A stretch of 64,000 nucleotides of DNA from Candidatus Saccharimonadota bacterium (GTDB lineage Bacteria; Patescibacteriota; Saccharimonadia; Saccharimonadales; Saccharimonadaceae), in contig JAFUEB010000004.1 of NCBI GenBank assembly GCA_017464135.1, positions 1 through 64,000 of the forward strand, given 5' to 3'. Both the position numbers and the translations under genes were made by a program. Under the pieces are notes generated by a model. The model searched no databases. It was given only the letters and a program-made list of their open reading frames with translations, and had not been told where the DNA came from. This document shows, piece by piece, positions 50,024 to 64,000 of this stretch (position 1 is its first letter; every line of letters starts with the position of its first letter).

Positions 50024-53000
50024 ATGGATACACACTGGATAAATAGGAAAGTGCGATTATTCAAATTGAGATTTAAATCTCTCGGTTTTTTGAATACTTG
50101 TGCTTCTTTCGCGTTGGTAATACTTTCCATTGGTGTATTTTTCCCATTTACAAATATTTTCAAGACAACTGATGCGCATTTGGATCTTACTGGTGACTCG
50201 TCTATTACGATGACATCGACTAAGAGCACTGCGTCCGTTACGATTCAACCGTCGCTCACTGGTGTTTTTGAAACAACTTCAGGTAGTGGCGATATCGCAT
50301 TTACAGTGTCGACGAACAACTATACAGGCTATGAGTTGTCTGTTCATAGTACAAATACAACTTTGGACCATAACAGCAGTTCGTTTTTGCCACTTGTTTC
50401 TGCGGTGACAGCGGCACAATTTGCGAATGGCGGTAATACTACGCTCAACAATCGTTGGGGTTACAAACCGAATTATTACAACTCAGAAACCAATACTAAG
50501 TACTATGGCTCGACGACTTCATCGGTGGTGCTTGATAGGACTTCGGTGGCGAACACTACGGCTAAACAGTACACGATTTCGCTGGGTGCAAGAGCGGATG
50601 CATCAATACCAATGGGTACGTATGTTAACGATAGCTTTACTTTGGAAGCGGTCGCCAACGTGGTGCCTTCTTCGATTCTAACCGTAGCGTATACAACTGG
50701 CATTATTGGCGTTTCGATTGATGGTCATGCGGTTGCGGATGGTGAAACTGTCGAATTGATTAGGGATATTCCGTATACGATTGCGGTGACTTATAATTCG
50801 CCGGCCTATGCATTTAGTTCGTGGTCGGCCACTTCTGGTACGCTTGGTTCGACTTCTTCCGAGTCGACAACTTATACGATTGGTGCGACGAACGCAACGC
50901 TCACGGCTAATGCGGTACCAAATCAATATGACATTACAATTAAGACTGCTACTGGCGTCAGTAAAGTTAGCCTCAACGGTGTAGAGTGTACGAGTACTTC
51001 TGGCTGCGTAGTGACGGCTTTGACATATGGTAGTACTTATAATTTAATTGCAACTCTTGCGACTGGGTATAATTTTTCGGCTTGGTCAAACAGCAGTAAT
51101 AAGGGTTATATTGCGGCGAACTCTGCTTCGACTTCCTTTACAGTTGGGAATGGTACGACGACACTCGCGCCTTCGACTACTCCTAAAACATATACAATTA
51201 CGCTGAACGGAAACGGTGCCACTACGGCTGGTTCTGCCTCGGCTACTGCGACATATAATTCCACGACACTTTCCGCGATTACGCGTCCGCAGAGGAAATA
51301 TACGGTTTCTGGTTTTAGTACTGCGAATAACCGTGCATCAGGTGCTAGCGTTACTTCTACTTCTACGCTTACGAGTACCTATACATTTAATGGTTGGTAT
51401 AAAGAATCTGGCGCAACTAATAAAATTGCTTCGAATGCGGCAACCCCAGTGCTTCAGGCTAGCACCAGTTATACCGATTCTACTGGACATTGGACCTCGA
51501 CTTCCGCTCAAACGCTTTACGCGGGGTGGTCGTCTGCTCCTGTAACGCTTCCGAGTATTAGCAAAAATGATTATACTTGTGGTTGGACTACTGTTCAGTC
51601 TGGTGCTACTTCTATCATGTATTATTCTGGTGATCCGGTCACCCCAACCAGCAATATGACTCTTTACGGCGTCTGCATTCCTCCAGCAATGCAGAATTTG
51701 GCTGCCAATAAATGTACTACTACGGTTAAAGAAGTTCGTGATACCCGTGATGGCCATATCTATACTATCAAGAGAATGAATGATGGTGTTTGTTGGATGA
51801 CAGAAAATCTTGAACTAGGCGCAACAGATCTTAGTGTTGCCTTAACTTCTGCAAATTCCAATCTTTATACCACTATTCCGGCTGCAACCTTTAATGGTTG
51901 GCGAAAGACATCTGGGTCGAATACATATACGGCTGGCGAGTATATTCAAGTTTCGGGTAATGATGCGGTTAACGGCTCGCCTTATGGTGTTTTGTACAAC
52001 TATTATGCCGCTTCTGGCGGTACAATTTCCGGCTCAACTAATACAGGTGATTCGACATATGATATTTGTCCAGCTGGATGGAGATTGCCATCAGGTACGA
52101 GGAACACAGGCGAGTTCCATGACTTCGCGAACTATTACAGTACGAATACTGTGCTCCAACAAGCAGTTTCTAGTGGTGGTGCCGGAATGACGCTCAGCGG
52201 TATCTTTACTAGTTCGACGCCGACTTCTAAAGACTGGCTGTCTAGTTATTGGTCTTCAAGTGTAGCGGATTCTGGATGTTTCTCACGTAATGGTAAAATG
52301 CTTGGTTTCGAGTTTACTAATAATAGTTCTACGGTTTATGCTGATGCTTGTAATGATCGTGCTAGCGGCCATTTGATTCGATGCGTGCTTGATGAATCAA
52401 AGATTTCTGACCTGACATATCTACAAGACTTTGCGTCGCTTACGAATGCTGGTCGTAAGGGTGTGATTGCTTCGATGGGTCTTGGCACACAGTATCAATT
52501 AACTGACATTCGCGATAACAAGAAATATTACATTGCGAAACTGGCTGATGGCAATGTTTGGATGACGCAGAACCTTGATCTTGATCTTGAGACATCACCG
52601 GTTAGCGTTGTAGCATTGACGCCGGCCAATACAGATATTCCGTCGAACTGGACTCCTTCTTCGGCCACTCGCACTAACACCTCGTGGACATTCACAACTA
52701 CGGCTCCACAATCCTATAACCCTGGTACTAAGTATTGGAATGGCAATACGCATGATGGTAGTGGCACGAGCACTTCTTATATTAGTAATTCTGGCACGGC
52801 GCAGTACCATCTTGGCAACTATTACAACTGGACGGCGGCGGTAGCCCTTAATGATAGCTCTAGCTACACGACGGCTGGCGTGTTGCTTGACCAGTCTATT
52901 TGTCCGGCTGGCTGGACGCTTCCGCGTGGTGGTTATGGCGCATCGACTTATTATACTTTGTCTTATCAATATTCTGGCAATATCTGGCTCTCACCGACTT

Positions 53001-53215
53001 ACTTTGCACTTTCGGGTACTTGGGGCGGTTCTTATGATAGTGTTGGCTTTACGGCTATGTACTGGGCGACTGGCGCCAAGAATGCCGATCGTGCCTACTA
53101 TGCCGATTTCTCTTCCGATGGTTCTCGTAACGTTGGTACTGGTGGTTATGATCGTGATATGGGCCTTCCTGTGCGCTGTATCGCTCGCCCGGCTGCCGCT
53201 TATATTACACAATAA
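50024..53215 (+). CDS. Secreted FISUMP-domain protein 3 (mosaic)
   Basis: 1,063 residues. A basic start and hydrophobic segment (FALVILSIGVFFPFTNIF) precede the beta domain with NNRWGYKPNYYNSE, as in the 23123 and 58297 genes. The middle (about 50929-51685) matches the beta-repeat block of protein 1 (18646-19393), including ATLATGYNFS, ITRPQRKY, FNGWYKE and LYGVCIP. Two FISUMP domains follow (cores near 52063 and 52900), the first of the Cys-paired class and the second of the Cys-less class. It ends RCIARPAAAYITQ with no sorting signal. AGTAGG precedes ATG 50024; TAAAAT lies at 50003-50008. Confidence 0.9.
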   Translation: MDTHWINRKVRLFKLRFKSLGFLNTCASFALVILSIGVFFPFTNIFKTTDAHLDLTGDSSITMTSTKSTASVTIQPSLTGVFETTSGSGDIAFTVSTNNYTGYELSVHSTNTTLDHNSSSFLPLVSAVTAAQFANGGNTTLNNRWGYKPNYYNSETNTKYYGSTTSSVVLDRTSVANTTAKQYTISLGARADASIPMGTYVNDSFTLEAVANVVPSSILTVAYTTGIIGVSIDGHAVADGETVELIRDIPYTIAVTYNSPAYAFSSWSATSGTLGSTSSESTTYTIGATNATLTANAVPNQYDITIKTATGVSKVSLNGVECTSTSGCVVTALTYGSTYNLIATLATGYNFSAWSNSSNKGYIAANSASTSFTVGNGTTTLAPSTTPKTYTITLNGNGATTAGSASATATYNSTTLSAITRPQRKYTVSGFSTANNRASGASVTSTSTLTSTYTFNGWYKESGATNKIASNAATPVLQASTSYTDSTGHWTSTSAQTLYAGWSSAPVTLPSISKNDYTCGWTTVQSGATSIMYYSGDPVTPTSNMTLYGVCIPPAMQNLAANKCTTTVKEVRDTRDGHIYTIKRMNDGVCWMTENLELGATDLSVALTSANSNLYTTIPAATFNGWRKTSGSNTYTAGEYIQVSGNDAVNGSPYGVLYNYYAASGGTISGSTNTGDSTYDICPAGWRLPSGTRNTGEFHDFANYYSTNTVLQQAVSSGGAGMTLSGIFTSSTPTSKDWLSSYWSSSVADSGCFSRNGKMLGFEFTNNSSTVYADACNDRASGHLIRCVLDESKISDLTYLQDFASLTNAGRKGVIASMGLGTQYQLTDIRDNKKYYIAKLADGNVWMTQNLDLDLETSPVSVVALTPANTDIPSNWTPSSATRTNTSWTFTTTAPQSYNPGTKYWNGNTHDGSGTSTSYISNSGTAQYHLGNYYNWTAAVALNDSSSYTTAGVLLDQSICPAGWTLPRGGYGASTYYTLSYQYSGNIWLSPTYFALSGTWGGSYDSVGFTAMYWATGAKNADRAYYADFSSDGSRNVGTGGYDRDMGLPVRCIARPAAAYITQ

Positions 53216-53991: not shown

Positions 53992-54020
53992 TTGATAATT
54001 ACCGGTTGATGTGGTAGAAT
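53992..54020 (+). promoter_or_regulatory. Promoter of tRNA-Thr
   Basis: TTGATA (53992-53997), 17-base spacer, TAGAAT (54015-54020), 9 bases before the tRNA. Confidence 0.75.
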
Positions 54021-54029
54021 ATTTTTAGT

Positions 54030-54105
54030 GCCGCGATAGCTCAGTCGGTAGAGCGCATCCATGGTAAGGATGAGGTCACGAGTTCAAATCTCGTTCGCGG
54101 CTCCA
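54030..54105 (+). tRNA. tRNA-Thr (anticodon GGT)
   Basis: Acceptor GCCGCGA / TCGCGGC, D arm GCTC...GAGC, anticodon stem CATCC/GGATG around ATGGTAA (anticodon GGT), T arm CACGAG-TTCAAAT-CTCGT region, discriminator T and encoded CCA. Confidence 0.94.
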
Positions 54106-54123
54106 TTTTAGAATAATAAGAGG

Positions 54124-54156
54124 ACTGCTCTGGCATAAAAGCCAGGGCAGTTTTTG
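54124..54156 (+). terminator. Intrinsic terminator after tRNA-Thr
   Basis: Eleven-bp stem ACTGCTCTGGC (54124-54134) / GCCAGGGCAGT (54141-54151), one G-U pair, 6-nt loop, T run. Confidence 0.9.
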
Positions 54157-54185
54157 TTTTAGTTTTGTTTTTCTAGATCCACTAA

Positions 54186-54535
54186 GTGCAATCTTTTCGT
54201 AGCAGCTTTGTGGTCAGAGTGGAAACCCCACTTGTACCTCGATCCTAATATTAAACCTAATAAGAAAGGATTGCTGCTATATCTTGAGAATAGTGCTTTG
54301 CCGTATTTGCTCCGGCTTAACCAATCGAGCCAAGGTAATTACTCCACTAAAAATTATATTGTTGTCGTGAGGTTGAGCCGGAACATGATAGAAGCTTTAT
54401 CCGGATCGATAAGTGCCGCAATTGAATTTTAGGCATAAATTCAAAGCATCCAGCACTTTATCTGCCGAACAATTTGAGGTTTTCCTCGCAAATCTTGTCG
54501 ATCCAGATACTGCTTCTATCTGCTATAATTAAATT
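54186..54535 (+). pseudogene. Possible decayed coding remnant
   Basis: No intact gene is convincing here. Three short plus-strand stretches in different frames look protein-like: VQSFRSSFVVRVETPLVPRS (54186-54248), a 74-codon frame from TTG 54208, and a stretch from about 54413 reading LSAEQFEVFLANLVDPDTA, ending in TAA at 54530-54532. Their shifting frames suggest a gene degraded by indels; the family is not identified. Alternatively it is non-coding. Confidence 0.3.
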
Positions 54536-54647: not shown

Positions 54648-55409
54648 TTATTGCTGATCTTTTAATTTTGCTATTCCGTATAGCAAGTGGCCTAGCGCTT
54701 CGAATGGCTTAATTGAGTAGATATGCCCTAATCTGCGCTCGTAAAATAGTTTACCGTTTTCGTATTGCTCATATTGCCACGCAGTACCATCAAGGGCCTC
54801 TATTTTATGATCTTCTTTCGCGCCGTCCTTTAATAATGAAAAGATCTTTTTATACTCGTCGTCTGAAATCGCAGTCTTAGTTCTCGTAAATTTTTCACCC
54901 CAATTTCTATATAGCACTTCCATTGTTTTGTCGGTATAGATTTTCCATATAGTTTTATCCCAGTTACCAGGCCCAAGCATGGCCCAACATTGGTGCTGTA
55001 CGATTAGGGATATCTCTTTAGACTCATCTATATCCTCGTCGAGCGAATAGAGGAATGCTTTTGGCAGAACCACATTTTTAGTTCTATCTTCAAAATACAT
55101 TGCAATTTCATCAGGGCTATATCCAGCAATACCGCAACCGATTTCAGTCACTAGAAAAGTCAGCTCGGGATGTTTTTTGGCAAATTGTAGAAAGCGGTAT
55201 ATTTGGTCGACCATTTCATCTTCTGAGTCCATGGTATTGATCGCATAACTTTGGCCTTGTAGGCCCTCTGCTTGTCCTATTTTTGCACCAAATTTATGTA
55301 CGGCGGTTGCAGCTGCTCCGCCAAAATGGGCGCCTTGGCCATTACTACCAAATACGATGATTTCGTCTTTGTCTAATTCCGTAATAAATCCGTTGTTGTC
55401 GTATTTGGC
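54648..55409 (-). CDS. Macro-domain-like protein (phage-associated A1S_2505-type)
   Basis: 253 residues. The N-terminal half contains ELDKDEIIVFGSNGQGAHFGGAAATAVHKFGAKIGQAEGLQGQSYAI and later FLVTEIGCGIAGYSPDEIAMYF, the pattern of a family of phage-related macro-like proteins (VFGSN-x-G-x-HG-GAA...GLQG-SYAI...IGCG-AGY). Macro domains bind or hydrolyse ADP-ribose derivatives; activity here is not shown. The C-terminal half has no recognised domain. Start chosen at MAKYDNNG, two bases past the stop of the zinc-ribbon gene; longer frames overlap that gene. Confidence 0.75.
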   Translation of the reverse strand, partial: AKYDNNGFITELDKDEIIVFGSNGQGAHFGGAAATAVHKFGAKIGQAEGLQGQSYAINTMDSEDEMVDQIYRFLQFAKKHPELTFLVTEIGCGIAGYSPDEIAMYFEDRTKNVVLPKAFLYSLDEDIDESKEISLIVQHQCWAMLGPGNWDKTIWKIYTDKTMEVLYRNWGEKFTRTKTAISDDEYKKIFSLLKDGAKEDHKIEALDGTAWQYEQYENGKLFYERRLGHIYSIKPFEALGHLLYGIAKLKDQQ

Positions 55410-55411
55410 CA

Positions 55412-55639
55412 TTATTCTACTCCAGGATCTGGCTCGTAGGTTTTCTTTAAATCTCTCGAATAATCCATATTGCAATTTTTGCAATGATATTTTGGATCGT
55501 CGCCAGAAAGGCAACATCCGCCAAGTATTACTTCGCCTCGTTCTTCGGCTTCAAACAATTCGGAGCCGGGCATTCCATAAATAATCTCGATGAGATTTTC
55601 GCCACATTTTGGGCATTTTTTAGTCGTCTGGGAACTCAT
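55412..55639 (-). CDS. Small zinc-ribbon protein
   Basis: 75 residues with two CxxC pairs, KKCPKCGENL and YHCKNCNMDY, separated by IEIIYGMPGSELFEAEERGEVILGGCCLSGDDPKY. The IxYGxP...GxVxLGGC pattern recurs in a small uncharacterised family. The four cysteines should bind one zinc. It overlaps the upstream nuclease-like gene by 20 bases and is adjacent to the macro-like gene, so the three are probably one transcript. Confidence 0.8.
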   Translation of the reverse strand: MSSQTTKKCPKCGENLIEIIYGMPGSELFEAEERGEVILGGCCLSGDDPKYHCKNCNMDYSRDLKKTYEPDPGVE

Positions 55640-56081
55640 TTTTCATCCTTTGCCAATTATATTCTTCTACATTGCCTCTTTTGTCTACAAAAAAGAAATA
55701 AAGGTTCAGCTGTCTGCATACAGTCCAGTGAACCTTTTTTAAATGACGGTCTTTAAAATAATCGGGATATGCTACGCCATATTTATTGCTACCTTTGCTT
55801 GCTGTTGGCATAATTTTGGAATGAATACGCGTTATGATCTGAGCTAACCCTACTAAGAAATTAGATACATCGGCTGAGCTTGCGTTTTTTGCATTCCTGG
55901 CTCCGCCTTTACACTCCACTAACCAGTATCTACTATAGTTTTCATTGCATACCCTAATGTCGACGCCATGCTCGTGGAGTCCTTTTGAGACTATGTTTTT
56001 AGAGTATCCTTTATCCGCCAAATATTTGGCAACAGAATCCTGGATAAATGGTTCATAAGGATAGCCGCAATCTTTGAACAT
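55620..56081 (-). CDS. PD-(D/E)XK nuclease-like protein
   Basis: 153 residues. HGVDIRVCNENYSRYWLVECKGG matches the core of restriction-endonuclease-like folds, with Asp in GVDI and Glu-x-Lys in VECKG. An N-terminal helix pair (EPFIQDSVAKYLADKGYSKNIVSKGL) fits this fold. The rest (LVGLAQIITRIHSK, KKVHWTVCRQLNLYFFFVD) forms the remaining strands and helices. Start is ATG 56081, 6 nt after TATAAT (56093-56088, minus strand); a longer frame to 56117 is not needed. First gene of a three-gene operon. DNA or RNA target unknown. Confidence 0.7.
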   Translation of the reverse strand: MFKDCGYPYEPFIQDSVAKYLADKGYSKNIVSKGLHEHGVDIRVCNENYSRYWLVECKGGARNAKNASSADVSNFLVGLAQIITRIHSKIMPTASKGSNKYGVAYPDYFKDRHLKKVHWTVCRQLNLYFFFVDKRGNVEEYNWQRMKNEFPDD

Positions 56082-56098
56082 ATTTATATTATAACATT

Positions 56099-56469
56099 TT
56101 AGGCCGTTCTTTTCCACATATAGACCGTAATGTATGGCTGTCGGTTTTTGTGTGATTCACCACCACCAGTATTTTGGTTTGTAGCGGTCGTTCCGCCGGT
56201 GTAGTCTTGTTGATAGCCATCTTGCGCCCAATTATTCGCCGGAGAAGTGTAGCCATAGCCGGACAGGTTGCCACCACCGTAAGAGTTCCATCTGTTGTAA
56301 GTTGTATGTGAGTGTGAGTTTTGTGTATGTGTGTGACTCGGCATTTCGGCTATGGTCAAGGTATGTTTCTCCTCGCCACCGGTCGCTTCTACGGTTGAGT
56401 AATTTGTAGTTCCGTTTGAGCCATATTTGTGATAAAAAATAGGGGTCTACCTCCGCTTTTTACATGCAT
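56099..56469 (-). pseudogene. Phage tail-collar/fibre C-terminal remnant
   Basis: The frame ending at 56099 reads TGGEEKHTLTIAEMPSHTHT, then a His/Asn/Gly/Thr-rich stretch and HKNRQPYITVYMWKR, the standard C-terminus of phage tail-collar or fibre proteins. Upstream it is open only to 56446. An ATG at 56469 begins in another frame (MHVKSGGRPLFF) that would join it by a one-base change in the T6 run at 56434-56439 (minus strand reading). So the gene looks frameshifted or is a short fragment; an ATT start at 56440 after GGAGGT is a less likely alternative. Confidence 0.55.
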
Positions 56470-57622: not shown

Positions 57623-58012
57623 TTATCCTTTTATGTCAAGGACTGTTCCATTTTTCTGCACTATTTTGAGGCGTTTAATACGAGAACTCTCCTTTGATAA
57701 GAATTCCTTTGTTCTTGATATGCCTTGTTCATCTGTTAGCTTACTACGCGAAAGGTCTATAATTACATTTTCGGATTGTCTATCAATACTTCTGAGATTA
57801 TTTTGGATAGTGTGTTTACCGCCGCCTTCTGGGGATTTGAGCCCCCAGCGAATATTGGTTTTTAGAACATACAGATCTGGCGTTTTACTGCTATAACGGC
57901 GAAGAAAAATAATGTCGCTCTTAAAATGCCCGGTAAGTAGTTCAGCTATTCTCCTTTCATGAGGACGTGGTCTTGATTCACCAGATTCTTCGTAGCGTAC
58001 TTTATATTTCAT
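57623..58012 (-). CDS. CdiA C-terminal tRNase-like protein
   Basis: 129 residues. HERRIAELLTGHFKSDIIFLRRYSSKTPDLYVLKTNIRWGLKSPEGGGKHTIQNNLRSIDRQSENVIIDLS follows the pattern of the CdiA-type PD-(D/E)XK tRNase domain (HE...LA, TPD, W-E-x-KSP-x-G, TI..NL..A..QS.N..iDL). Here the W-E-x-K Glu appears to be Gly (WGLKSP), which could impair catalysis. There is no delivery region, so it is stand-alone. Start MKYKVRYEE is 7 nt after TATAAT (58025-58020, minus strand); two upstream in-frame ATGs overlap or precede the -10. Confidence 0.7.
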   Translation of the reverse strand: MKYKVRYEESGESRPRPHERRIAELLTGHFKSDIIFLRRYSSKTPDLYVLKTNIRWGLKSPEGGGKHTIQNNLRSIDRQSENVIIDLSRSKLTDEQGISRTKEFLSKESSRIKRLKIVQKNGTVLDIKG

Positions 58013-58025
58013 ACTCATGATTATA

Positions 58026-58248
58026 GCACGAATAACAGGGAAGAAACAAAGTGACACATTCCGCTTATTCTTGGTGCAAACGACCGAAGTGAAAGCTCGG
58101 GCAAGGGAACGGGTGCTATACTGCTTATTCTAACTGAGTCGCCTTTGACCTCGTAGGACATTTTTATTTGATGGTTTTGTTATATTATTTCTGCGATTAT
58201 AGGTTAGTGTATAGATTGCTCGTCTTACCATATGACATATTTAATTCA
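58026..58248. other. Intergenic region with no gene seen
   Basis: I find no convincing gene. It contains two CYGCTTATTCT words (near 58072 and 58122), otherwise AT-rich sequence leading into the promoter of the 58297 gene. Confidence 0.5.
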
Positions 58249-58296: not shown

Positions 58297-61200
58297 TTGT
58301 TGGAGGCAATGTCAATTAGGAATACGCGAAAGATTAGGTTTAGTTTTCAATTGTCTATTATTTTGTTGTTATTTATTACGATATTAAGCATTGTTCCATA
58401 TGACGCAGAAAAAGACGATGTCGAAGCGGTAGATGATCATACCACACCCGCCTCATTGTCATTTATTTCCGCTAATGACCATGCAACCGTCGCGATTAAC
58501 CCATCTACAGCTGGTACATTTGGCGCCTCTTCAGGCGATTCTGATATTAGGTTTACCGTTTCTACTAATAATTATACTGGCTATACATTGACGGTCAAAG
58601 CGACAAAAACTACTCTTGATTCCACGACTGATGGTGTCATTTCCACTTTAGCATCTTCGGTAACTACTTCTCAATTTAGTAATGCATCGAATACTCCACT
58701 TAGCAATCGTTGGGGATATAAGCCGAATTACTATAATTCATCAACCAACAGTGACAGATTCTATCCTGCTACATCGGACTCTGTAATACTAGACAAAACA
58801 GTTGCAGCAAATACTACTGCAAAAGCTTACATTATTTCTCTTGGCGCAAGAGTTAATTACGAAATTCCTTCCGGAACTTATGAAAATAATACGCTTATGC
58901 TCCAATATGTAGCCAATCCAGTACCGTATACGGTTTCTTTTAATGATAATGTTGTTGATGATATCGTAAATAATATGCCGTCCAGTCTAACTGGTAACTC
59001 ATCTTCGCCCGATACTGTCACCCTTCCTAGTAGAATACCAACTAGAGATTATTATGCGTTTGCTGGTTGGTGCACGGTTAAACCGATAGAGGTAGCGGGA
59101 GGCCAACTATGTCCTGGAACTGCATATTCAGCGAATGGGTCGTATGGTCTGAATTATACTGTCAGTAATTCGAATAATGTACTTTATGCGATTTGGACTT
59201 CGAATAGAGGATGTAATAAGGCTGCGACCACGATTGGAACTGGTGTTTCTTCAACCGATGCCGTATGTATGCAAGATATTAATAACAGCGTTATTTCTTC
59301 TATGGTTACTGGTGTGCAACATTCTTTGGTCGACATGCGTGACGGTAAATCTTATTTTATTGCAAAACAATCCGATGGAAAAGTATGGATGACACAGAAT
59401 CTTGATTATGTATTAAGCACTTCTACCACCTTAACTCACCATTCTACAGATATTGGCTATACTGATGTGAATCTCGATAAGACTTTTTCTCCTAGTACTA
59501 ATACCATTACGACTGAAAGCGAGTGGTCAATGAGTGAAAACACTTTACCTTTTTCGTATGATCCCGGTGATATTTATTATTATTCTTCTGGCACGACCGA
59601 TGATGACACGCCGTCTACGGCCTGCAATGATACGAGTACATGTAAACATTATCATGTAGGCAATTATTACACTTGGACTGCTGCTGTTGCATCGAACGAT
59701 ACTTCTTCTATGGTTGATACCTATTCGATAGCGCCCGACTCGATTTGCCCAGCTAATTGGCGGCTTCCTAGTGGGACTAATAATGATACTTATAACGAGT
59801 TTAACCGTTTATTGGTTAAGTCTGGTGTAGTGACTGAATATGCATCTAAGACTAAATTATTAAGTTATACGACTAACGGTTTTACTCTTTTAAGAAGTGC
59901 GCCATTATATATTACTCGATCCGGTGCAATTTGGACTCCTACGCTGAGCTACTCAGGTAAAAATGGTTATCTATGGAATGATACTATAACTAGTTCTACT
60001 GCGGCTGGAACTTTCAATATGAATAAGAATTATTTAAACTATAGTGCTACTCTTACGAGACGAAATGGTTTTCCTATTCGCTGTGTTGCTCGAATGAACG
60101 CTGGCTCATCCTTGGTTAACTATTATGGTAATGGTGCAACCGATGGCGTTCAAAAGAGCGTTACTATAAAGAAGGGGAATACATTGCGTTTTCCAACCGA
60201 TATTTTTACTAGGCAGAATTATATTTTATCTGGATGGAATTCTAAGGCAGATGGTACCGGGTTATATTATGATTTTGACAGTATCTATGATGTTGAATAT
60301 AATAGCCCGGCTGTCATTGATTTTTATGCAGTTTGGACTCCGGCTTACAGTATTGTTTACAATGGGAACGGATCATCGAATGACTCTGCGATGGGTGTAA
60401 ATAATATCGTGAAAAACGGAGACGAAACTCGTCTTTTTGCTTCTAATTATAGACGAGATGGCTACGGTTTTGTTGGATGGTCCGTTACGCAAATTGATCC
60501 TGATGCGGCGAATGCGAAAAATTTGATCTCTAATGCAAAAATATTTGGTCCAAACGAGAAAATCATTGCAAATAATGTCAACCTTGGCAGTAATGCGCCT
60601 GCTAATATAACGCTATATGCGGTCTGGATTAAATCTGAAGGTGACATGCAAAACTGGGTGGGATGTCCTTCTATGAATATAGGAGATTTGACTGCTAGAA
60701 AAGATATTAGAGACAACCAGGTATATGCTATTGCGAAACTAGCAGATGGCAAATGCTGGATGATAGAAAATTTAAGATTAGATGCAAACGGCGCGGACAA
60801 TAAAGCTGACGCTCAAGGTTTTGATACTGGTTTTTTGGGTCTTGCCACCGCTGAGTCTGAGTCGAATTTTACGTATAGCGTCATCGCAAGTAATTCTTTA
60901 TATACTACGTCTAATATTACGGGTGAAAATCAAGCGTACAGGTTCCCTCGTTACAATAATCGTAATACTAATGATACGGTTGAAATAATGACTAGTGTGA
61001 ATGAAAACATTTATTCATATGGCAATTATTATTCTTGGCCGGCCGCGAAAGCTAGTATTTATAATTTCACTTTTAATGATAATTCGATTACAGTGAATAG
61101 TTCGATTTGTCCTAAAGGCTGGAAGCTACCGTCTGCAAACAACTCCGGTACGGACACTAGTACATTAATTAGTAGTTTGAGATCTGAATCAAAAATGCTT

Positions 61201-64000
61201 TACCATTTCCCAAATAATTTCGTCTATTCTGGTACGATTAATAATCGTAACTCTTACGGAGACATTGCTCTACTTTGGGCCGATAATTATAACGGCGCGC
61301 AGCTTTATCCGCATCATGCACACACGATTTATAGTTCAGCGACTTACAATACTGATAGCGCTATAGAATCATATCCTACTTATTACGGTTTGCCAGTTCG
61401 CTGTATATCTACTAATAATGTGACGATTGCAGACGTCTCTTATCTCCAGAGTTTCAAAAACTATTCTTCCTCTGAGGTTGACTCAATTGCTGCCTCCATG
61501 CCTTACAATACGACTTATAATCTTGTTGATAATCGTGACAATAAAACATATAAGATTGCAAAACTAAAAGACGACAATATTTGGATGGTCGAAAATCTTG
61601 ACCTTGGCCGTACTACGCTGACTACTAGCCTTACAAGTTCAAATACGAATCTTTCTACTTCAATTTCTGCCTCCACTTTTAACAGCTGGAAGAAAACAAC
61701 TGGTTCAAGAACATTTAATAATGGAGAATTTATTAATGTTGATGGTACAGACTCGTTTAATGGAGTCGCATATGGTACGTTATATAATTATTTTGCTGCT
61801 TCTGCAGGTACAGTCTCTGGACAATCCTATGACTTCATTTATACGACTAATGATATTTGCCCAGCCGGGTGGCGACTTCCGGCTGAAGGGATATATGCAA
61901 ACTACTACACTCTATTTAAAATTTACAATAATGAGGATAGTGCTAATTATTTTTCAAATATAAGATCTCCCGTTGCTTCTGGTGGTGCTGCACTTAACCT
62001 TTCTGGAACTTTTTATAGTTCTCCTACTGGAATTGGTAGCACTGGTAGTTATTGGGCAGCAGGATGGAGCAGCAGCAATGCAATGCGTTGTCCAACTCTC
62101 GATACTTCCAACACGGCTTTCTACCCGAATTTGGAAAAGCAGCGTGACCTTGGCGCTTCAATACGTTGTGTAGCTAAACGAACACTTTATCCGCTGACAG
62201 TTAAATATGGCGAAGGTGTTGTGGACGTAAAAGTTAATGGCGTGTCAGTTCAAGATGGTGGAATAATCAACATTGAGAAAAACACAGCATATCCAATTTC
62301 TGCAACTGTTTCAGATGGCTATGCATTTTATAGGTGGTCTAAACTTGCCAAACCTGGACTCATTAATAATTTTCGAAGACAGTCGACAACTCTCACGATG
62401 AGCGATGAAAGAGAGGTTTTGACGGCCACTGCATTACCGAAGATGCAATATCTTGATACGGGAGTATGTACGTCTGCTTCAAGTAAAGTGATTGATGAAC
62501 GTGATAACCACGTATATACTATAAAGCGTCTTAATGACGGTAATTGCTGGATGATGGAAGACTTAGACCTCGGTCGCACAGCTCTTACGACAGATTTAAC
62601 ATCTAATAATACTAATCTTTCAGCAACGATAACAGCTGCAACTTTTAATGGCTGGAAGAATACGACTGGGATAATTTCTTATACTACTGGTGTTTTCGTT
62701 CCTCTTTCGGGCACTGATTCGGCTTCCGGTACCCCATATGGCGTTCTTTATAACTATCACGCTGCTTCTGCTGGCACAATTACAGGGAATAGTAATAGTG
62801 CCAATGCCAGTTTTGACATTTGTCCATCTGGGTGGAAATTGCCAACCAGTGGAAACGGTGGCGAGTTCCAGACTCTCTATGAGCATTACAATTCGAACGC
62901 TCTTCTTACGGCTCCTATATCCCAAAATGGCGCTGCATTTGCTTATAATGGATCCTTCTATAATACTGTGCCGTCCGGGTTGGGTACAGCTGGTGGGTAC
63001 TGGTCTTCAACCGTAAGCAATAATTCAAATATGTATTTTATTGGCTTTAATACATCGACTATTTACCCATCCAACTCGACTTTTCGTACTACTGGACATG
63101 GTATACGATGTATTATGAAAAACTCTACTCGCACTCTCACCATTTCATATGGTGCTGGAGTAGCGAGTGTAAAGGTTAATTCTGTCAGTATTCTTAATGG
63201 CAATACAATTGATCTCGAGCCAGGCGTCTCATACACTATCGAAATGACGCCGTCTACTGGTTATGTGTTTGATTATTGGTCTGCAACTTCTGGAACGATT
63301 GGTTCTACCACTACACAAACAACAACTTATTCGATTGGATCAAATAATGCCACTTTAACAGTTGTCGCAGCTAGTACTGCTCCTGTCATACAAAATCTTC
63401 CATCAGCTAGTTGCACCACTACTGCATCTCTTGCAAGAGATAATCGCGATGACCATATTTATACCGTTCAACGTTTAGCGGATGGTAGATGTTGGATAAT
63501 GGAAAACCTTGATCTTGGTCGTACTACACTTACTGCGAATCTTACTTCTGCGAATACGAATCTCGTCTCTACAGTTTCCGCTACAACATTTAATGGCTGG
63601 AAGAAGACTTCTGGAACACAAACATACGATGCTGGTGAATTTATCAGTGTTTCTGGTTCGGACACTACTTCTCAAACTCCGTATGGAACTCTATATAATT
63701 ACTATGCCGCATCTGCTGGCACCATTACTGGTAGCTCTAATAGTGTTGACGCATCTTACGATATTTGTCCGGCTGGCTGGAGGCTTCCAACTGGTAGTAC
63801 TAACGGTGAGTTTAAAAAACTTTATGATCAGTATAATTCGCTCGAACGAATTCGTGCATCGATTGCAAACAATGGAGCCGCTTTTGCTTTTGCAGGCTAC
63901 TTTACTAGTGGTGTTCCGGCTGGTCAGGATAATAGTGGTGATTATTGGGCTTCCACAAGACATAATGATACGGTGGTAGGTCGTTTGGTTCTTAATACGT
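58297..64000 (+). CDS. Giant secreted FISUMP-domain protein 4 (3' end outside window)
   Basis: The frame starting TTG 58297 is open to the window edge, more than 1,900 codons. Start chosen by AGGAG 58287-58291 and the matching TTG arrangement of the 23123 gene. N-terminus LEAMSIRNTRKIRFSFQ, then a hydrophobic signal (LSIILLLFITILSIV), the beta domain with NRWGYKPNYYNSS, a repeat segment (FAGWCTV...LYAIWTS) and FISUMP domains at about 59215-60105, 60650-61420, 61430-62180, 62440-63120 and 63385 onward (last truncated). It is the closest paralogue of protein 2. Cys-less FISUMP domains are the first and third. Confidence 0.9.
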   Translation, partial: MLEAMSIRNTRKIRFSFQLSIILLLFITILSIVPYDAEKDDVEAVDDHTTPASLSFISANDHATVAINPSTAGTFGASSGDSDIRFTVSTNNYTGYTLTVKATKTTLDSTTDGVISTLASSVTTSQFSNASNTPLSNRWGYKPNYYNSSTNSDRFYPATSDSVILDKTVAANTTAKAYIISLGARVNYEIPSGTYENNTLMLQYVANPVPYTVSFNDNVVDDIVNNMPSSLTGNSSSPDTVTLPSRIPTRDYYAFAGWCTVKPIEVAGGQLCPGTAYSANGSYGLNYTVSNSNNVLYAIWTSNRGCNKAATTIGTGVSSTDAVCMQDINNSVISSMVTGVQHSLVDMRDGKSYFIAKQSDGKVWMTQNLDYVLSTSTTLTHHSTDIGYTDVNLDKTFSPSTNTITTESEWSMSENTLPFSYDPGDIYYYSSGTTDDDTPSTACNDTSTCKHYHVGNYYTWTAAVASNDTSSMVDTYSIAPDSICPANWRLPSGTNNDTYNEFNRLLVKSGVVTEYASKTKLLSYTTNGFTLLRSAPLYITRSGAIWTPTLSYSGKNGYLWNDTITSSTAAGTFNMNKNYLNYSATLTRRNGFPIRCVARMNAGSSLVNYYGNGATDGVQKSVTIKKGNTLRFPTDIFTRQNYILSGWNSKADGTGLYYDFDSIYDVEYNSPAVIDFYAVWTPAYSIVYNGNGSSNDSAMGVNNIVKNGDETRLFASNYRRDGYGFVGWSVTQIDPDAANAKNLISNAKIFGPNEKIIANNVNLGSNAPANITLYAVWIKSEGDMQNWVGCPSMNIGDLTARKDIRDNQVYAIAKLADGKCWMIENLRLDANGADNKADAQGFDTGFLGLATAESESNFTYSVIASNSLYTTSNITGENQAYRFPRYNNRNTNDTVEIMTSVNENIYSYGNYYSWPAAKASIYNFTFNDNSITVNSSICPKGWKLPSANNSGTDTSTLISSLRSESKMLYHFPNNFVYSGTINNRNSYGDIALLWADNYNGAQLYPHHAHTIYSSATYNTDSAIESYPTYYGLPVRCISTNNVTIADVSYLQSFKNYSSSEVDSIAASMPYNTTYNLVDNRDNKTYKIAKLKDDNIWMVENLDLGRTTLTTSLTSSNTNLSTSISASTFNSWKKTTGSRTFNNGEFINVDGTDSFNGVAYGTLYNYFAASAGTVSGQSYDFIYTTNDICPAGWRLPAEGIYANYYTLFKIYNNEDSANYFSNIRSPVASGGAALNLSGTFYSSPTGIGSTGSYWAAGWSSSNAMRCPTLDTSNTAFYPNLEKQRDLGASIRCVAKRTLYPLTVKYGEGVVDVKVNGVSVQDGGIINIEKNTAYPISATVSDGYAFYRWSKLAKPGLINNFRRQSTTLTMSDEREVLTATALPKMQYLDTGVCTSASSKVIDERDNHVYTIKRLNDGNCWMMEDLDLGRTALTTDLTSNNTNLSATITAATFNGWKNTTGIISYTTGVFVPLSGTDSASGTPYGVLYNYHAASAGTITGNSNSANASFDICPSGWKLPTSGNGGEFQTLYEHYNSNALLTAPISQNGAAFAYNGSFYNTVPSGLGTAGGYWSSTVSNNSNMYFIGFNTSTIYPSNSTFRTTGHGIRCIMKNSTRTLTISYGAGVASVKVNSVSILNGNTIDLEPGVSYTIEMTPSTGYVFDYWSATSGTIGSTTTQTTTYSIGSNNATLTVVAASTAPVIQNLPSASCTTTASLARDNRDDHIYTVQRLADGRCWIMENLDLGRTTLTANLTSANTNLVSTVSATTFNGWKKTSGTQTYDAGEFISVSGSDTTSQTPYGTLYNYYAASAGTITGSSNSVDASYDICPAGWRLPTGSTNGEFKKLYDQYNSLERIRASIANNGAAFAFAGYFTSGVPAGQDNSGDYWASTRHNDTVVGRLVLNT

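Follow-up and report, generated by a model that had tools for sequence, protein, structure and literature searches.

A macrodomain gene with changing partners in prophage-derived cargo beside a tRNA-Thr(GGT) gene of Saccharibacteria: a candidate ADP-ribose-linked conflict cassette

We analysed a 64-kb window of DNA, by which we mean the whole of positions 1-64,000 of contig JAFUEB010000004.1 from Candidatus Saccharimonadota bacterium (assembly GCA_017464135.1). The genome it belongs to (G000, contig C2 in our numbering) comprises 668,675 bases, is 72% complete, and has Saccharibacteria as its nearest named relatives. Three open reading frames lie head to tail on its minus strand, in the order 56081 to 54648, and encode a candidate nuclease, a small zinc-ribbon protein and a macrodomain protein. 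The features at the locus are as follows:

54648..55412, minus strand: 254-aa macro protein (NF049995, phrog_2072, macro fold, dN/dS)
55412..55639, minus strand: 75-aa protein with two CxxC pairs, a zinc ribbon (sequence; weak ribbon matches)
55620..56081, minus strand: 153-aa candidate PD-(D/E)XK nuclease, Mrr-like (motif, matches below cut-off, homologue in L016)
56088..56096, minus strand: extended -10 promoter element TGTTATAAT (conserved in relatives)
56102..56422, minus strand: phage tail stub, last 107 codons, Gp10 C-terminal domain (89% identity to the L018 protein)
54030..54105, plus strand: tRNA-Thr(GGT), integration hotspot (ARAGORN; beside every testable macro locus)
57623..58018, minus strand: stand-alone CdiA_C-type (nuclease-like) protein, upstream in the same island (PF18451, 1.5e-11)

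The nuclease and ribbon frames have 20 bp in common, TAATG is the joint stop and start of the ribbon and macro genes, and TGTTATAAT sits 6 nt before the nuclease ATG. Coordinates, frames and the one extended -10 element thus agree with the first-pass annotation of this DNA, which had described three overlapping or adjacent ORFs on one strand under a single promoter. The macro start at 55412 is backed by the MA(K/N/T)YD start common to five relatives; a 289-aa ORF considered for the same gene was rejected as too long, since the relatives start at this motif. Comparison of the nuclease with its homologue in L016 (90% identical) gave a pS of 0.78 and a pN of 0.06, and the dN/dS of the macro N-terminal domain was 0.06 against L018 and 0.10 against L133. 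By these measures the frames are genes under purifying selection, not chance ORFs. The nuclease, ribbon and macro genes are real and form one operon.

The N-terminal part of the macro protein, residues 1 to about 124, is an A1S_2505-type macrodomain. Residues 18-120 matched NF049995, the "A1S_2505 family phage non-structural protein", at 131.5 bits against a cut-off of 45 and across model positions 1-109 of 109; the protein also matched phrog_2072. An AlphaFold2 model built from 22 sequences was confident for the N-terminal domain and unreliable for the C-terminal domain. Compared by Foldseek and VIA-align 2, it matched macrodomains including TARG1 with ADP-ribose, alphavirus macrodomains, DarG and YmdB, with fold Z scores of up to 10.4 (TARG1 and viral macrodomains), which exceeds the level the tool calls common, and of 9.7 for DarG. 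The predicted fold places the N-terminal part within the macrodomain superfamily, and the earlier description of the protein as macro-like was borne out by family match and modelled fold. Beyond NF049995 the assignment rests on the fold, because a profile of the macro alignment searched against PDB sequences returned nothing convincing. A Pfam search of the macro protein gave no match, its C-terminal domain included. That extra domain, residues about 125-254, has an unassigned fold; it was found alone in a few other Saccharibacteria, near a glycohydrolase in L136, and a search of plasmids for it found none.

The Saccharibacteria clade of this family departs from most phage members at two motifs, carrying Met in place of the Lys of the (P)TK motif and HxGG in place of HxxG. 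We suspect that the lysine of the phage members is the catalytic lysine of TARG1 and DarG. Because of these two replacements, the activity of the Saccharibacteria macro proteins is uncertain and may differ from that of their phage relatives. An alignment of the A1S_2505 family separated two motif classes, HGxGAA with T-K and HxGGAA with T-M or T-L, and the Saccharibacteria sequences belong to the second.

The 153-aa protein is a candidate Mrr-like PD-(D/E)XK nuclease, judged from its sequence. Its motif residues are D41 and E56-x-K58, and the succession GVDI - VECKGG - GLAQIITR follows the order of PD-(D/E)XK proteins. The match to Mrr_cat reached 15.6 bits for a cut-off of 21 and that to MTES_1575 was likewise below cut-off, while an AlphaFold2 model from only two sequences (pLDDT 48) was too poor to use. 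Searches of viral contigs and phage records for the nuclease found none, and a search of plasmids found one distant protein (25%) among pilus genes, which is uninformative. A distant homologue in G340, in which the match has one stop codon, adjoins a type IIG restriction enzyme and a methyltransferase. The ribbon protein has two CxxC pairs and weak matches to library ribbons. The first-pass description of the two proteins is right: the CxxC pairs and the nuclease motif residues are present. The nuclease matches lie below cut-off and the protein is kept as a candidate.

In other Saccharibacteria the ribbon family is often joined to a second domain, HAD-like by eye and without a Pfam match. What adjoins it differs by locus: in L012 an oligonucleotide cyclase paired with a SLATT effector, in L013 a GmrSD C-terminal domain, and in L010 a DrmD-like helicase. 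At L012 1-2097, a gene for a ribbon with the HAD-like domain (by eye), without a library name, starts 6 bp behind the CBASS-like cyclase/SLATT pair. Among Lachnospiraceae prophage records, five of the seven with the ribbon family have it within 250 bases of the record end, as att-site cargo would be.

Phage origin is recorded directly upstream of the nuclease gene. The tail stub there corresponds, at 89% identity, to residues 627-733 of a tail protein that is intact (733 aa) in Nanosyncoccus alces (L018), and it matches Gp10_C at 1.3e-08; the intact protein is phrog_372. In N. alces the tail gene comes after a tape-measure gene and other tail genes, and IMG/VR lists the stretch as a virus (L040) that ends just behind the tail gene. 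The tail gene of L129 keeps only its last 14 codons. In the window, L016, L018 and L129 the tail stop codon is followed by the element TGNTATAAT, which lies 6-10 nt ahead of the first gene of the cargo; the same extended -10 element precedes the glycohydrolase gene of L017. With 15 occurrences in the window, the extended -10 element is therefore a promoter mark and not a special one. Prophage moron, or lysogenic-conversion, cargo is made up of genes that are not structural, have a promoter to themselves and adjoin the structural genes of a phage. The operon is cargo of this type, and all that is left of the phage in the window is this operon and a tail-gene stub. The stub and the CdiA_C-type protein also confirm the phage- and toxin-like neighbours noted in the first reading. 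A rival reading takes the operon itself for a functionless, decaying prophage remnant: the tail gene is truncated and the macro gene is rare, occurring in 6 of 392 genomes of the class. This is very improbable, in that the three frames are open, conserved and under strong purifying selection, and the promoter is kept.

We compared the window with the other genomes carrying the macro gene, eight in all with the window included, a small set of related genomes. The genes at each locus are:

Window: nuclease, ribbon, macro with the extra C-terminal domain
L016: tail gene, nuclease (90% identical), ADP-ribosylglycohydrolase, 145-aa protein, macro; ribbon absent
L017: glycohydrolase, 111-aa protein, macro
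L019: two genes McrBC-like by eye, glycohydrolase, macro
L018 (Nanosyncoccus alces): tail gene, 3-methyladenine DNA glycosylase, macro
L129 (G411): 109-aa protein, HD protein, 493-aa macro-glycohydrolase fusion, FtsK_gamma-type protein
L133: macro, with none of the partners above
L015: macro gene 98% identical to that of the window; the contig begins inside it

The trio is not conserved: nuclease and macro occur together in two of the eight genomes and all three genes in the window only (1/8). The macro gene is the constant part and its partners change. For the L019 pair an McrBC identity was rejected, as the first gene matches only type II restriction enzymes and the second matches nothing. 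The trio's absence elsewhere counts against a conflict module defined by these three genes, and the macro fold and nuclease motif residues, both present, count in its favour. The change of partners from locus to locus is what tells against a toxin-antitoxin pair, one of the functions that the first-pass annotation had offered. In such a pair the nuclease would be the toxin and the macro or ribbon protein its antitoxin. Overlapping frames, small genes and a mobile setting would suit such a pair; yet the nuclease is found in only two of the eight macro loci, the ribbon is absent from L016, and a DarT partner was found in none of 12 genomes searched. We regard it as highly unlikely.

Among the changing partners, an ADP-ribosylglycohydrolase recurs. 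It lies in the macro operon (L016, L017 and L019) or is fused to the macro domain (L129/G411) in four of the eight genomes. The family is PF03747 (1.9e-62 for the copy in the window's own genome, 9e-64 for the fusion) and is related to Tri1 (4.7e-54) and to DraG below the equivalog cut-offs, for Tri1 far below. It also matches solved ADP-ribosylglycohydrolases (2cwc, 1e-45) and keeps the TDDT and GDTDT motifs. A close or fused glycohydrolase was present in 5/8 macro genomes, compared with any match at all in 22/199 sampled genomes of the family. The window's genome has its copy at C2:67243-68319. This copy shares the strand of the macro gene, is 12 kb away from it, and forms a row with HD_4 (SpoT-like) and uracil-DNA-glycosylase-family genes. 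The sibling G225 has the same macro gene without a glycohydrolase, so the macro operon is independent of it. In relatives, restriction or GmrSD genes adjoin such glycohydrolases. Together with the macro-glycohydrolase operons and fusion, this supports both the conflict module that the first reading had proposed and its ADP-ribose link. The search for DarT (PF14487) gave no match in the 12 genomes, with a positive control in Deinobacterium and the window's own genome 72% complete; a search for PF01129 transferases found no match anywhere, controls included, and is thus uninformative.

The row of glycohydrolase, HD_4 and uracil-DNA-glycosylase-family genes occupies L138 1828-5144 (G000:C2, about 65.8-69.1 kb), just past the window. 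Further along the same strand we noted, by eye, vWA-like, kinase-like and adenylosuccinate-synthetase-like proteins.

The kinship of the hydrolase with Tri1 raises a reading in which phages play no part. Saccharibacteria live attached to other bacteria, and the macro protein and the hydrolase might neutralise ADP-ribosylating toxins from neighbour or host bacteria, as Tri1 does. The restriction-type partners and the prophage setting suit a phage conflict better, and we consider immunity of this kind unlikely.

The slot that the cargo occupies is fixed. The window operon ends 0.54 kb from tRNA-Thr(GGT), and all seven macro loci with enough flank (7/7, the window included) lie 0.4-2.2 kb from a tRNA-Thr(GGT) identified by ARAGORN. 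The hotspot applies to the macro loci and to the close hydrolase locus L136, since the distant glycohydrolase loci (L170-L176) do not adjoin a tRNA-Thr. In L015, L017, L018 and L129 the tRNA-Thr is cut in the anticodon loop, its 5' half ending in CCATGGTAAG, and a complete, different tRNA-Thr(GGT) follows 50-60 bp after the cut copy. The split and complete tRNAs are at L015 1279-1468, L017 5780-5951, L018 5763-5934, and L129 7877-8046 and 11079-11122. L129 keeps both halves of the cut tRNA, 3.2 kb apart and with matching acceptor stems. Along its length the cut half of L017 is identical to the complete tRNA of L015 and L129, and the insertions were therefore serial. Between the cut and complete tRNAs, a motif like CCTACCCCTG-GCGAAA-GTGGC is common to the relatives. 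The window's own tRNA-Thr is unsplit and native-type (within 54000-54260), and the same island, 98% identical, lies beside a split tRNA and a foreign copy in L015 (1200-1500).

These four relatives thus pair a split host tRNA with a complete, element-borne tRNA of the same isotype. In this they match tRNA-dependent lysogeny, so far described in actinobacterial phages (Guerrero-Bustamante and Hatfull 2024, PMC10865867), where, as here, a short core in the anticodon loop is the site at which the host tRNA is cut, and the element supplies a complete tRNA of the same isotype. The present case differs in concerning tRNA-Thr(GGT) and Saccharibacteria and in the unsplit tRNA of the window; neither an integrase nor an attP was seen in the stretches read. 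Tentatively, the site may be a swap-in conflict locus at one tRNA, in which a modular ADP-ribose "shield" sits between the tail gene and a complementing tRNA-Thr, with the macro gene or macro-glycohydrolase as its constant part. Such cargo would be locked in even after the phage decays, because the element's tRNA would become essential once the host copy is split. We hold this reading to be doubtful.

The cassette is of a known kind; what is new is its setting, the macro-glycohydrolase fusion and the prophage slot at tRNA-Thr. The closest description is that of the ARG-centric host conflict systems (Iyer et al. 2022, PMC9503650, section 3.8). These are loci in which an ADP-ribosylglycohydrolase has no transferase paired with it, and to which genes for Macro, for an HD phosphatase and for variable restriction endonucleases may be added; over 42% of the systems include a sensor regulator, Nudix or WYL (PMC9503650). 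L016, L017, L019 and L129 likewise have a glycohydrolase in the gene neighbourhood and no transferase beside it. In the window, by contrast, the glycohydrolase lies 12 kb off, outside the operon, and the setting is Saccharibacteria prophage cargo, whereas the main text of PMC9503650 names no CPR or Patescibacteria. The annotated neighbours showed neither a Nudix/WYL regulator nor a rhodanese-phosphatase or TY-chaperone. Relative to the A1S_2505 family (NF049995/phrog_2072), the window's macro domain is a full-length member, but the protein has the extra C-terminal domain and combines HxGG with T-M, against HxxG with T-K in the phage majority. With DarTG systems the locus has in common a macro model close to DarG, but DarT is absent from the operon and from the genomes searched and an unrelated nuclease is there instead.

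The locus is probably prophage cargo that handles ADP-ribose in a conflict. The trio would then be a lysogenic-conversion ("moron") operon, and the Saccharibacteria prophage carrying it at its tail end would be one that uses tRNA-Thr(GGT). Its macro domain may bind or hydrolyse either an ADP-ribose adduct on a macromolecule or a soluble ADP-ribose signal. In concert with the DraG/Tri1-like hydrolase encoded 12 kb away, it might undo ADP-ribosylation imposed by an outside enzyme, which could be an incoming phage's transferase or a neighbour's toxin. Where present, the glycohydrolase would remove ADP-ribose from another linkage than the macro protein does. The Mrr-like protein would serve as a nucleic-acid effector and the ribbon as its nucleic-acid-binding partner. 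We favour removal of ADP-ribosylation imposed from outside because DarT is absent from the 12 genomes searched and Macro, HD and restriction accessories have been described in ARG-centric systems. That the cargo serves defence in particular, protecting the lysogen, is a serious possibility that we put forward with less assurance than ADP-ribose handling itself.

The main rival to defence is phage counter-defence, in which the macro protein would destroy ADP-ribose-derived alarm signals or reverse host ADP-ribosylation and so serve the phage and not the host. The macro family belongs mainly to phages (353 phage records; phrog_2072), a Nudix gene adjoins the macro gene in two viral contigs, and phage macro domains have been argued to target mostly soluble ADP-ribose signals (Iyer et al. 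2022, PMC9503650). The macro gene nevertheless keeps its own promoter and remains under purifying selection in decayed prophages, and restriction-type partners would harm a phage. Counter-defence is possible, though we would not expect it; of the two roles, we think protection of the lysogen likelier than service to the phage.

Little is known about the way in which reduced, parasitic bacteria, Saccharibacteria among them, handle phages. The locus offers a concrete, testable candidate in prophage-borne cargo that combines ADP-ribose removal with restriction-type nucleases at one fixed chromosomal site, where the cargo genes are exchanged. The A1S_2505 proteins are a common but uncharacterised family in phages, and the fusion of their macro domain to a glycohydrolase is a strong hint of what they do.

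Around the operon, the CdiA_C-type gene has an element of its own (TGCTATAAT at 58028), and whether its protein is a member of the cassette is uncertain. Two homologues (36%) in G094, at L170 3572-3973 and 7256-7657, are identical over their first 100 residues and flank a glycohydrolase gene and a transposase-like gene. On either side of the island, at 50024-53215 and 58297-64000, the plus strand of the window encodes large repetitive surface-type proteins with similar repeats.
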